Of a DNA stretch of 64,000 nt, positions 41,654 to 57,184 are shown one piece after another. The first letter of the stretch is position 1; each line of letters starts with the position of its first letter. The stretch is from Halomarina rubra (GTDB lineage Archaea > Halobacteriota > Halobacteria > Halobacteriales > Haloarculaceae). The DNA is taken from contig NZ_JALXFV010000008.1 of NCBI RefSeq assembly GCF_023699475.1, forward strand, positions 534,583-598,582, given 5' to 3'. The notes below the pieces were generated by a model, which saw only the letters and a list, made by a program, of their open reading frames with translations, ran no database searches and was not told the DNA's origin. A program made the position numbers and the translations under genes.

Positions 41654-42571
41654 TCACTCACTCGCGCGGACGCTCGAACTGGACTCGGAGGCACTCGTCG
41701 TAACCGGGGCTGGCGTCTCGTACAACCCGTCGCCTTCGTTCAGCACCGTCCCGTCGTACGTCCTCGTCGCCGCGAACTGCCGACCGTCGAGTGCCACGAC
41801 GACCCGCGTCGGTGGGTCGTCGGTCCCGACGGCAGCGCGGAACTCCCGTAGTGCGAGAGCGGACTCACAGATAGTGTCGTTTTCCGGGTGCGTGACGCCG
41901 GAAGTGACGGTGACGACGAGGGTACCGTCGTTGTGGCGGGTGGTACTGGCGTTCATCGTGAGACACCTGTCGTCGCTGCTGGCTTCGACCTGTCCGGTGA
42001 CGAGGACACGCCCGTCGTCGCGCTCGACGGCGACCAGTTCGGCCCACTCACTGCCGTTGTAGTCGAACTCGTCGCCGCCGAACGCGAGCAGGTCGGCGTC
42101 GCTCGTGAGACTGCTCGTGTGGCGAAAGCCGCTGTCGTGCGTGACGACGACGCGGTCCGGTCTGGCGTCGGTCACGACCGTCGCCCGGTAGTCGTAGTAG
42201 CCGAGCGACCCGTTACAGCCGCCCTTGTCGGCGGGCACCTCGGAGTCGGACGTGACCTGAACTGCGAGCGTGCCGTCCGCTCGGCGGGTCGCGTCGGCGT
42301 CCATGGTCAGGCACGGTCTGTCACCGATACCGGGAATCAGGCCCGTGACGACGACCGAGTCGTTCCGGTACTCGACGGCAGCAGCCTCCTCGTAGGCAGT
42401 GATGTCGGGCCCCTCGAAGTACTCGCCGTCGTACTCCAGGTCCACCTCTCGGTCGGTCGGAGTACGGTTCTGTTCGTCGTCACCGAGCGGCGTCGTCCCC
42501 AGGCAGCCTGTGACGACGAGCACGCTACAGAGCGCCAGCACGAGCAGTCCGGACGGGCGGGTGGAGGGCAT
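41654..42571 (-). CDS. Lipoprotein with an internal domain duplication
   Basis: The 305-residue protein has a Sec-type lipoprotein signal (LLVLALCSVLVVTGC). Two similar beta-rich repeats follow: residues about 70-150 (VVVTGLIPGIGDRPCLTMDA through RVVVTHDSG) and about 180-275 (VLVTGQVEASSDDRCLTMNA through RVVVALDGR). Each has CLTM and a second cysteine, probably a disulfide. It is an exported protein of unknown function. It is convergent with the DUF63 gene, and its start lies upstream of the YcaO gene's end on the same strand. Confidence 0.8.
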   Translation of the reverse strand: MPSTRPSGLLVLALCSVLVVTGCLGTTPLGDDEQNRTPTDREVDLEYDGEYFEGPDITAYEEAAAVEYRNDSVVVTGLIPGIGDRPCLTMDADATRRADGTLAVQVTSDSEVPADKGGCNGSLGYYDYRATVVTDARPDRVVVTHDSGFRHTSSLTSDADLLAFGGDEFDYNGSEWAELVAVERDDGRVLVTGQVEASSDDRCLTMNASTTRHNDGTLVVTVTSGVTHPENDTICESALALREFRAAVGTDDPPTRVVVALDGRQFAATRTYDGTVLNEGDGLYETPAPVTTSASESSSSVRASE

Positions 42572-52975: not shown

Positions 52976-53603
52976 ATGGCTCACGTAGGCCTCACCGAGG
53001 CAGCCGAGGATAGAGGAAGTCGCCGCGAGGCGGCTGGTCGAGAAATTCTCCGACTCGGATAGTCCGCTGCCACCGTACACGCTCAGTAGCAGTCCAGTCT
53101 CCGATTCCACAGACACCACCCACGCCAGCGACGCCACTCCCGCGAGCGCGGCGGCCGACGCCCGCGGCGGGGATGACGACCGCGAGGGCCCTCCCGACAC
53201 GGTCGACGTCCGCGTCGACGGTCTCGACGTGACGCTCGCGCTCGGCGACGACCGGCACGTCCTCTCACACGAGGCCGCCCGTCGGTTGCGCGGCGCGCTC
53301 GACGACGCGCTCTACCGGGTCCACGAGTTCACCCACACCACCGGCGAGCATCGCCCCGACGGGAGCTACGTCGTCGCGCGACGGCGCGCGTCCTCGGCCG
53401 GCCACCGCAAGGTGTTCGCAGACGCCGACGCCGTCCGGCGGTGTTACGACGAACTCCCCGAGGCGTTCACCGCCGAGGACGTGACGTGTGCGTCGGGCGG
53501 CCGACGCCACATGCTCGTCTGGCACTTCGCCGAGCACCCGGGGTACGACTGCGAGATAGTGTCGAGACAGCCCCTGACCGCGCGGAAAGGCGAGGAGGGG
53601 TGA
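52976..53603 (+). pseudogene. Conserved protein gene with an apparent +1 frameshift near its start
   Basis: The ATG at 52976 opens MAHVGLTEAAED, then the frame would stop at 53060. The adjacent frame is open from 52989 to the TGA at 53603 and encodes EEVAARRLVEKFSDSDSPLP and further. Skipping one base at 53012 joins both into MAHVGLTEAAED-EEVAARRLVEKF. The C-terminal part (LGDDRHVLSHEAARRLRGAL, RASSAGHRKVFADADAV) looks like a real conserved protein. No ATG or GTG exists in that frame before 53229. Either the first part is broken (frameshift or sequence error) or translation begins at GTG 53229, giving 124 residues. Confidence 0.55.
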
Positions 53604-54676: not shown

Positions 54677-54762
54677 GCGCGCGACCGTGGTTCCCCCGAC
54701 TCCCACGACTGCGCGCCACGCCGGGCCACGGACCTTTGGTGACGCGGACCCAACCCGAGGAC

Positions 54763-54909
54763 ATGCGCGACGAGGAGGAGATCAGAGAGCAGTACGAGTT
54801 CCTGAAAGAGGAGTTAGAGAGCGAGGACATGCGCCACGAGGGGGTCAGACAGATGTTCACCTACTACAAACGGGCCATCGGCTGGGTGCTGGAGGAAGAG
54901 CACATCTGA
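54763..54909 (+). CDS. 48-residue conserved-looking small protein
   Basis: The ATG at 54763 opens MRDEEEIREQYEFLKEELES, then EDMRHEGVRQMFTYYKRAIG and WVLEEEHI. It is a charged helical protein with strong third-position GC. It lies 87 bp after the DUF1028 stop. The size and helical pattern resemble small haloarchaeal proteins of unknown function. The alternative longer in-frame start is not supported by composition. Confidence 0.65.
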   Translation: MRDEEEIREQYEFLKEELESEDMRHEGVRQMFTYYKRAIGWVLEEEHI

Positions 54910-54924
54910 CCCGATGCCGGTAGG

Positions 54925-54930
54925 TTTATA
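54925..54930 (+). promoter_or_regulatory. TATA box (TTTATA) of the candidate sRNA
   Basis: TTTATA at 54925-54930 sits in the context GCCGGTAGGTTTATACTTC. About 25 bp downstream is the base of a stable hairpin, the usual distance to an archaeal start site. No protein start follows within 200 bp. A near-identical element (16 of 19 bases) is at 55662-55680, before the PadR gene. Confidence 0.65.
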
Positions 54931-54952
54931 CTTCTGTAGCGGTTTGTAACAG

Positions 54953-55047
54953 TCGACGCTTCGCTTGGAGGGCCGAAGCGTCAGCGGGGACCAATTTCAG
55001 GGCGGCGGGCTCGGCCCACTTTTCGGGCTTGGCCCGCTTTCCTTTCC
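54953..55047 (+). ncRNA. Candidate small RNA with terminator hairpin
   Basis: The RNA would begin near 54953 and form GACGCTTCG/CGAAGCGTC (54955-54963 with 54974-54982, 10-nt loop). A single-stranded AGCGGGGACCAATTTCAGG region follows. A second hairpin comes next: GCGGGC (55005-55010) with GCCCGC (55032-55037) and inner GGCCC (55013-55017) with GGGCT (55025-55029), then the T/C-rich TTTCCTTTCC tract, as in intrinsic-like archaeal terminators. Length is about 95 nt. I do not recognise it as tRNA, SRP RNA, RNase P RNA or C/D box RNA. Confidence 0.55.
55005..55047 (+). terminator. Hairpin plus pyrimidine tract ending the candidate sRNA
   Basis: An 11-bp interrupted stem (55005-55017 with 55025-55037, one symmetric 2-nt internal loop, 7-nt apical loop) is followed by TTTCCTTTCC (55038-55047). 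Archaeal polymerase stops at T-rich tracts, so the tract is the relevant part and the hairpin may stabilise the 3' end. Confidence 0.5.
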
Positions 55048-55236
55048 TACTTACCACACAGCCAGCCAGAGCCGTGCGTCCGGCCGTCGTCACGGAACGC
55101 CGGTCGCTCCGCTTCGAACCACGAATCACGTTCGAGCGCAGCGTGCGCGTCGGCACTGCGGTCGCTGTTTGTACTGGCGGTCGCTTCTCGTGCACCGCTC
55201 GGTGTGTCGATGGTCGTTCGAGGCGAGTCGCCGAGC

Positions 55237-55515
55237 CTACTCGACGCTGAACTCGCCGCCGGCTTCGCCGCCGTCCTGGCCGTCGTCCCACTCCAGTTCG
55301 AACTCGACGCTCAGTTCGTCCGGTCCCGACCCGGTCTCGCGTTCGGCTTTCACCTCGAACGTGGGTCGAGCGGGGACCTCCAGGGAGAGGGTCTCCTCAC
55401 CGGCGGTGAGGACGATGGGTTCGCCCGCGTCCAGCTTGTCGGCGACCGCTCGCAGGTGGTCGGCGATGGCCGAGCGGTCGAGGGTCGACTCCGATTTGAA
55501 CAGGGTCTCTTCCAT
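55237..55515 (-). CDS. amphi-Trp domain protein
   Basis: The 92-residue protein matches the short amphi-Trp family: MEETLFKSESTLDRSAIADH, LRAVADKLDAGEPIVLTAG, then the FELEW segment. The family is small, acidic and beta-rich, of unknown function. It is often found in haloarchaea as single-domain proteins. A CTTATC TATA-like element lies about 30 bp upstream on the minus strand. It is divergent from the PadR gene. Confidence 0.85.
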   Translation of the reverse strand: MEETLFKSESTLDRSAIADHLRAVADKLDAGEPIVLTAGEETLSLEVPARPTFEVKAERETGSGPDELSVEFELEWDDGQDGGEAGGEFSVE

Positions 55516-55706: not shown

Positions 55707-56000
55707 ATGTACGACCTGACCGGATTTCAACGGGACCTCCTGTACGTCATCTCCGGTAGCGAGAAGCCACACGGCCTCGCCATCAAGGAGGAACTCGAAG
55801 ACTACTACGAGAAGGAGATCCACCACGGACGGCTCTACCCCAACCTCGACACGCTCGTCGAGAAGGCCCTCATCGAGAAGGGCGAGCAGGACCGCCGGAC
55901 GAACTTCTACACGATGACGGCCCGCGGACGGCGCGAACTCGAAGCCCGCCGCGAGTGGGAAGCCCAGTACGTTCAGGGCGAAGTCGATATCGAGGCTTAA
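55707..56000 (+). CDS. PadR-family transcription regulator
   Basis: The 97-residue protein is a single winged-helix domain: MYDLTGFQRDLLYVISGSEK, PHGLAIKEELEDYYEKEIHHG, LYPNLDTLVEKALIEKGEQD and FYTMTARGRRELEARR. It would bind DNA as a dimer. The gene is convergent with the AI-2E-type gene, and their stop codons overlap by 4 bp. Its promoter resembles that of the upstream sRNA. Confidence 0.92.
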   Translation: MYDLTGFQRDLLYVISGSEKPHGLAIKEELEDYYEKEIHHGRLYPNLDTLVEKALIEKGEQDRRTNFYTMTARGRRELEARREWEAQYVQGEVDIEA

Positions 56001-57184
56001 TCGGTTCCGTCGGGCGACGCCCCGCCAGGGTTCTCGACCGGTGGTTCGTCGACGACGACCTCTTCTGCGGACGGTGGTCCCGCCGACTCGATAGTCATCG
56101 CTCCGGGGTCGACGGCGAACGGCTGGATGGTCTCGCCGTCGAGCAGTTCGGGGAGGACCACGGTCCCGAAGTTGTAGACGAGCACCAGCGCGATGGGACC
56201 GAGGAAGATGCCGTACCACCCCCAGAGCAACGGCCCGAAGATGTACGCGAACATCACCATCCCGATGTGGAGGTTCCGACCGCTGACGTACGGTCGGAGC
56301 AGGAAGTCCGGGATGGAGTCGACGACGACGAACGAGACGGCGAAGAACACCGCGACGAACCAGAGGTTGTCGAGTCCGGGGAGGCCGCGGACGACGAGCA
56401 ACCCGGTGATGGGGAAGTAGACGAGTTTCATCCCGACGACGGGGACGAGACTCGCCACCCCCGTCAGCAGGCCCAGGAGGGTCGGGTACGGGATGGGCGT
56501 CCCCGGGGCGATCTCGTTGAGCAGCGTGTAGGAGACGGCCCCGATGACGCCGGTCATGATAGCGTTGAGAATGTTCCCGAAGAAGATGGAGGCGAAGTCG
56601 GTGTCCACGGCGCGTGCGTACGCCTCGAAGACGCCGCGGTCGTCGCCGAAGCGGGTTCGCACCCACCGCGAGAGTCTCGGGCCGTCGCGCAGCAGGTAGA
56701 ACGCGATGGCGAGCATGATGAACAGGTGGAACAGGGCGTTGCCGATGAAGAAGACGTAGTCGAGAGCCTGGTTCACCCCCTCCTGGAGGACGCTCTGGAG
56801 GTTCGGGTCGTTGAGCAACTCCTGGGGGTTCTCGGCGACGGTCGATATGTCGACGTACTCCTCGATGTACGGTTGCAGGGGGCCGAGGTCCGCGCCCCTG
56901 TTCTCGACGAGGGTGTTCACCTCCTGGAGCGAGACGGCGAGGACGTACGCGAACAGGAGCAACGCCGGGAGCGCGAGGACGAAGATGGAGACGCCCGCCG
57001 CGAGACTCGGCGGGTAGATGTGGCGTTTCAGCCGGTCGTACACCGGCCGGGTCGCGTAGTAGATGAACAGACCGAACACGAACGTCCCGACGAACGAGTA
57101 GAGCGTCAACAGGAGGACACCGACGAGGAGGACTCCGAGCGCGGCCCACGCGAGGCGTCCGCGGTCGAGGGAGGGCCATTCCAT
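55997..57184 (-). CDS. AI-2E family transporter (TqsA/PerM-like membrane protein)
   Basis: The start at 57184 gives 395 residues with about eight hydrophobic segments: LAWAALGVLLVGVLLLTLYS, FIGNALFHLFIMLAIAFYLL, LLGLLTGVASLVPVVGMKL and FGPLLWGWYGIFLGPIALVL. The PVVG and family spacing identify the AI-2E transporter group; many members are exporters or sodium antiporters and do not move autoinducer-2. An acidic tail ends in PPVENPGGASPDGTD. The gene is divergent from MgtC, with 82 bp between starts. Confidence 0.9.
   Translation of the reverse strand: MEWPSLDRGRLAWAALGVLLVGVLLLTLYSFVGTFVFGLFIYYATRPVYDRLKRHIYPPSLAAGVSIFVLALPALLLFAYVLAVSLQEVNTLVENRGADLGPLQPYIEEYVDISTVAENPQELLNDPNLQSVLQEGVNQALDYVFFIGNALFHLFIMLAIAFYLLRDGPRLSRWVRTRFGDDRGVFEAYARAVDTDFASIFFGNILNAIMTGVIGAVSYTLLNEIAPGTPIPYPTLLGLLTGVASLVPVVGMKLVYFPITGLLVVRGLPGLDNLWFVAVFFAVSFVVVDSIPDFLLRPYVSGRNLHIGMVMFAYIFGPLLWGWYGIFLGPIALVLVYNFGTVVLPELLDGETIQPFAVDPGAMTIESAGPPSAEEVVVDEPPVENPGGASPDGTD

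Follow-up and report, generated by a model that had tools for sequence, protein, structure and literature searches.

A small RNA conserved across the Halobacteriales whose invariant hairpin loop may pair with the starts of exported-protein mRNAs

We analysed a 64,000-nt stretch of the Halomarina rubra genome (referred to here as the window) and found at positions 54950–55047 of the forward strand a small RNA (sRNA) gene that is near certain to be real. The RNA begins with a hairpin whose loop is the candidate seed and, in the window's own genome, the complementarity between this seed and mRNAs is beyond chance. A preliminary description of the locus, made from the letters of the window, had proposed an sRNA that is transcribed from its own promoter, has a terminator-type end and fits no reading frame, and the case for such an independent non-coding RNA is supported by conservation, promoter spacing, covariation in hairpin 2, frame-breaking indels and dispersed paralogues. 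All the elements listed there (a TTTATA box, a hairpin at the base of which transcription would start, a second strong hairpin and a pyrimidine tract) are present in that order. In Rfam 15 no family was matched at the curated gathering score, and a search with positions 54700–55260 returned sub-threshold, chance-level matches alone.

Promoter, transcript ends and coding potential

The TATA box TTTATA (54925–54930) starts at −30 relative to hairpin 1 and is preceded by a BRE-like element, CGGTA (54918–54922), in which the C, G and A at −37, −36 and −33 are kept in 104 distinct copies. Counted from its first T, the TATA box lies exactly 30 nt before hairpin 1 in 96 of these 104 homologous copies and 29 or 31 nt before it in seven others; across the same set the sequence between box and hairpin is poorly conserved while the spacing is fixed. 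The RNA thus has its own promoter at a constant distance, as expected of an independent sRNA gene. Because the spacing is fixed in these copies, we placed the transcription start at the base of hairpin 1, and the predicted start region is AGTCG (54951–54955), where purines/T are conserved at −4 to −1. At the other end lies a pyrimidine-rich segment, TTTCCTTTCC (55036–55047), which is the likely termination region, and a scan for terminator-like sequences gave a match at 55024–55036. The transcript would probably extend from about 54951–54955 to about 55047, a length of 93–97 nt. Its terminator-type 3′ end, the pairing of which has been selected, is the second property expected of an independent sRNA gene.

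The loop of hairpin 1 is 10 or 11 nt long and the linker that follows differs by single bases between close relatives, which breaks all reading frames. The earlier observation that no reading frame fits therefore extends to the homologues, since there is no conserved frame across the copies. A GTG stands at the predicted start of some copies and might point to a leaderless small protein gene instead of an RNA, but the probability of this is practically negligible: the window copy and others have no GTG start (GTCGACG, ATTGACG), and close relatives are out of frame with each other owing to the one-base differences in loop and linker. A C/D box guide RNA was also considered and rejected, as neither the C box RUGAUGA nor the D box CUGA occurs in the RNA sequence.

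Structure and sequence constraint

The covariance model (R2), which replaced a first version (R1) whose RNAalifold structure missed hairpin 2, matches positions 54950–55046 with 95 bits and defines an sRNA body at 54955–55047. Hairpin 1 is formed by the 5′ arm GACGCTTCG (54955–54963) and the 3′ arm CGAAGCGTC (54974–54982); seven of its nine pairs are invariant, and it is 100% paired in 86 distinct sequences. The arms enclose the loop CTTGGAGGGC (54964–54973), in which UGGAGGGC is invariant in 104 of 104 copies. A single-stranded linker, AGCGGGGACCAATTTC (54983–54998), follows, with AGCGGGGAC invariant in all copies. About 37 consecutive nt, both strands of hairpin 1 included, are nearly invariant in 88 aligned copies. 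The single-stranded middle of the preliminary description holds from 54983 onward, but its last three letters, AGG, belong to the lower stem of hairpin 2.

Hairpin 2 (54999–55043) is of the terminator type and consists of 19 pairs in three helices, with a lower stem AGGG/TCCT. Here the sequence is free and the pairing is kept: for each of the 19 pairs there are sequences with changes at both partners. The structure as a whole reaches a covariation score of 0.339, compared to 0.118 for shuffles and at most 0.074 when the pairing partners are slid. The fold of hairpin 2 has a mean z of −5.3, and the 98-nt stretch folds at −49.1 kcal/mol, against a shuffle mean of −38.3 (z −3.1; lower than 200 of 200 dinucleotide shuffles). 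A pseudoknot between UUGG of the loop and CCAA of the linker was rejected: it fits 94% of cells, shows no covariation and is broken in several copies without compensation.

Distribution, copies and genomic setting

A core of ~52 nt (54955–55006) is matched in 286 of 295 genomes, an even sample of the order, and in 84 of 88 genera, with an identity that is typically 94–98%; among the good genomes of this sample the count is 255 of 257. In a set of 60 relatives, 55 match, typically over the same core. The nine sampled genomes without the core belong to three families; searched with the covariance model, these nine gave one match, at chance level. When 148 genomes of the phylum were searched in the same way, the matches were 23 RNA-carrying members of the order and none of the ~125 genomes from outside it. 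No match to the sRNA was obtained in exact scans of viral contigs or in a search of phage records; unannotated copies are found on two haloarchaeal plasmids. The conserved core and the covarying hairpin 2 together place the locus far beyond chance. The covariation-model search in other haloarchaea suggested in the preliminary description has recovered the RNA order-wide, and an absence of conservation, named there as grounds for abandoning the idea, is refuted.

Three copies of the sRNA are present in the window's genome and two in Haloferax, where all 15 genomes sampled have the second copy. In the window's genus the paralogues have no neighbouring gene in common, and these unrelated neighbourhoods suggest that the sRNA acts in trans. 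Its location is probably independent of its candidate targets, which are spread over both contigs. Two paralogues, L058 (G000:C1:31779–31880, minus strand) and L059 (G000:C10:709542–709641, minus strand), have TCTGGAGGGC as their loop, and their promoter boxes (CTTATCA / CTTTATC) are less canonical. They represent a second subfamily that also occurs in Halorubrum-type genomes.

Directly 5′ of the window copy is a conserved gene for a 48-aa acidic protein (54763–54909, plus strand), which belongs to no Pfam family and is syntenic in many genera. On the 3′ side of the main copy there is often an amphi-Trp gene on the opposite strand, with DUF7117 and AI-2E-family genes nearby. The conserved 3′ neighbour is a PadR-family regulator gene with its own promoter-like box (55707–56000, plus strand; Pfam PF03551). 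In 69 of 104 distinct copies it follows the sRNA on the same strand, an arrangement that would suit a leader, attenuator or riboswitch acting in cis on the PadR gene. We consider this very improbable, as a separate TATA-like box precedes the PadR gene in almost all genomes, an opposite-strand gene often intervenes, the sRNA ends in a terminator-type hairpin, the paralogues have no PadR gene, and complementarity to the PadR 5′ region is no better than that of shuffles. Elsewhere in the window, the Rfam element leuA-Halobacteria (RF03001, 74 bits) is found at 52999–53051 (plus strand), between DUF7117 and DUF7528 genes and not before leuA. It overlaps a possible leaderless ORF of 28 aa (ATG at 52976, with TTTATC ~30 nt 5′ of it).

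The loop complement at gene starts

We then looked for complements of the RNA at gene starts. For this we called genes over 1.6 Mb of the genome that contains the window, which gave 1582 usable genes with starts from a simple script. When the 7-mers that could pair with the RNA were ranked by their enrichment at gene starts, complements of the loop came first. The loop complement GCCCTCC peaked at 0 to +25 nt, with 24 sites as compared to 2–8 in most other 25-nt bins, and no peak at gene starts was seen for the opposite-strand word GGAGGGC. Because a first version of the test was confounded by codon-pair bias, we introduced internal-window, protein-family and class-specific controls. With synonymous shuffles of codons 1–12, taken relative to internal windows, GCCCTCC ranked first of 4650 7-mers (z 5.6, where the standard deviation of z over all words was 1.0), and GCCCTCCA ranked first of 7376 8-mers for N-terminal excess over synonymous shuffles. 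When each protein family was counted once, the ranks were second of 5593 for GCCCTCC and first of 5661 for GCCCTCCA. The sites occur in all three frames, the excess is seen in each contig separately (7 vs 2.2 and 12 vs 3.3), and from codon 13 onward there was no GCCCTCC excess in this genome.

The excess is confined to genes with N-termini of exported or membrane-like type, where we counted 19 sites against 5.6 ± 2.0 expected from class-only codon pools (0 of 1000 shuffles); all other genes had 7 against 5.8 expected. Lipobox genes, a class found after the fact and not predicted beforehand, had 12 sites against 3.3 expected (0 of 1000 shuffles). Extrapolation from the excess would give some 30–40 targets in the genome. 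In a genome of another family (G057; 800 kb, 689 genes), GCCCTCC was found 4 times with 3.3 expected, and once in exported genes with 1.0 expected. An effect of the same size would amount to only ~3 sites in exported genes there, and with so few expected sites this genome neither confirms nor refutes the idea. A DNA lipobox pattern applied over 59 genomes was too strict for an enrichment test.

Two candidate sites lie in the window, both as sequence matches on the minus strand: GCCCTCC at 57170–57176, codons 3–5 of the AI-2E-family transporter gene (start 57184), and GCCCTCC(A) at 42563–42569, codons 1–3 of a lipoprotein gene (start 42571). The AI-2E gene is a conserved neighbour of the sRNA, and its site is not exact in Haloferax. 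Tandem DUF7537-like lipoprotein genes (L058–L063; C10:411173–415194 of the window's genome), which are expanded in the window's genus, have GCCCTCC at codons 2–4, and more distant paralogues have it at codons 3–6 in another frame.

The preliminary description had proposed the middle segment, AGCGGGGACCAATTTCAGG, as a possible binding site. This finds no support, as gene starts show no enrichment of its complements and no conserved long complement was found. The target prediction that it had called for likewise returned no excess at gene starts and no recurring target for this segment. As a candidate seed, the loop of hairpin 1 is preferable to the linker. Exact complements of 11–12 nt to linker or loop identified no recurring gene in 30 relatives. 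Pairing with rRNA was rejected, as the best duplexes that loop and linker form with 16S and 23S rRNA did not surpass those of shuffled segments, and same-sense identity between the sRNA and rRNA does not exceed 9 nt. PadR mRNA as a target gave no signal (mean z 0.2–0.4), and the amphi-Trp gene was discarded with a 10-nt linker complement in the window copy only.

Proposed mechanism and alternatives

From the sequence evidence we lean slightly towards a trans-acting sRNA of ~95 nt whose loop pairs with exported-protein mRNAs near the 5′ end of their coding sequence. This RNA would be transcribed from its own TATA/BRE promoter and end at the hairpin with the pyrimidine tract, and the fixed loop of the 5′ hairpin, CUUGGAGGGC, would pair in trans with GCCCUCC(A) sites that a set of mRNAs carry in roughly the first 36 nt of the coding region. 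Most of these mRNAs would encode Sec-type lipoproteins or further proteins of the membrane or for export, and the pairing would block or tune their translation. We infer that the RNA is made, that the pairing occurs, that its outcome is repression and that the same targets are used in other genera. The archaeal Lsm protein is a possible partner. More tentatively, the RNA may be an order-wide archaeal envelope sRNA whose loop pairs with codons 1–12 of leaderless mRNAs and thereby controls lipoproteins and exported proteins by the tens, a counterpart of the bacterial envelope-stress sRNAs with an independent origin. In this view a single ultraconserved family would go back nearly to the root of the Halobacteriales and would have been retained since then.

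Pairing through the loop only leaves unexplained why stem and linker vary no more than the loop does. Hairpin 1 and the linker could be the site for a conserved protein or ribonucleoprotein, with pairing to mRNAs minor or absent. Such a structural or protein-binding RNA would account for the nearly invariant ~37 consecutive nt with both stem strands in the 88 aligned copies, and it agrees with the lack of long rRNA complements above shuffles and of a conserved long complementary target. It does not predict an excess of the loop complement at the starts of exported-protein genes, and we regard it as rather unlikely. A slightly smaller chance attaches to the RNA being real and the GCCCTCC excess having another cause, either a codon-context or signal-peptide bias of this genome or the site of some other factor. 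Codon-pair effects on 7-mers are large in general and the excess is missing in G057, but gene starts were contrasted with internal windows and the codon pools were class-specific, the sites fall in each of the three frames, and the word ranked highest complements the invariant loop exactly.

Relation to known small RNAs

The bacterial envelope-stress sRNAs MicA, RybB and MicL are trans-acting and use a short conserved seed to bind sites at mRNA 5′ ends; their targets are many envelope proteins, lipoproteins among them. The features proposed here are alike in each respect: action in trans, a short conserved seed, 5′ mRNA sites and envelope or lipoprotein targets. Unlike MicA, RybB and MicL, to which it has no sequence relation, the haloarchaeal sRNA has an archaeal promoter, a candidate seed in a hairpin loop and no Hfq, and its candidate sites fall within the coding part of seemingly leaderless mRNAs. 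In the most likely mechanism the sRNA would work like the bacterial envelope sRNAs, to which it is unrelated. If the pairing between loop and lipoprotein mRNAs is true, archaea would have a means of regulating their cell surface after transcription that is on a par with the bacterial one and is exerted inside the coding start of often leaderless mRNAs.

Haloarchaeal sRNAs have been described as fast-evolving, with 22 of 27 tested confined to one species, and few of the 27 sRNAs deleted in H. volcanii are conserved (PMC3956466). The family described here is the opposite, near letter-for-letter across the order, and is missing from Rfam. One H. volcanii sRNA probably belongs to it. This RNA, hts10 (HVO_2213s), is a forward-strand non-coding RNA of 161 nt found by RNA sequencing and conservation-based prediction and reported in 18 other haloarchaeal genomes (PMC3956466). 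The second Haloferax copy of our family is flanked, in order, by a 78-aa AsnC-domain gene and a DUF5813 gene (other strand) on one side and by a HAMP-domain chemotaxis-type transducer gene (other strand) on the other. Since HVO_2212 is 78 aa long (PMC12850539), this copy fits HVO_2213s by synteny, and it is from synteny and not from sequence that hts10 is assigned to the family. No structure, target or family has been described for hts10. Deletion of hts10 alone caused mild growth changes (2014; PMC3956466). As a second copy is present in 15 of 15 Haloferax genomes, it may have masked the loss, which would explain why this deletion alone might show little.

Another H. volcanii RNA, H225.2R, is ~96 nt long and was reported in 19 other haloarchaeal genomes (PMC3956466). 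It maps to CHR 1598008–1598103, next to the 16S rRNA gene HVO_1728, and the starts of this gene are found 185 nt and more upstream (PMC4983044). As H225.2R adjoins HVO_1728 and the starts of this gene lie upstream, it looks like an rRNA leader, and this coincidence of position with the 16S rRNA leader rules it out as the H. volcanii member of the family (PMC4983044). Deletion of H225.2R gives a pleiotropic growth defect, a phenotype that its apparent identity as the 16S leader may explain.
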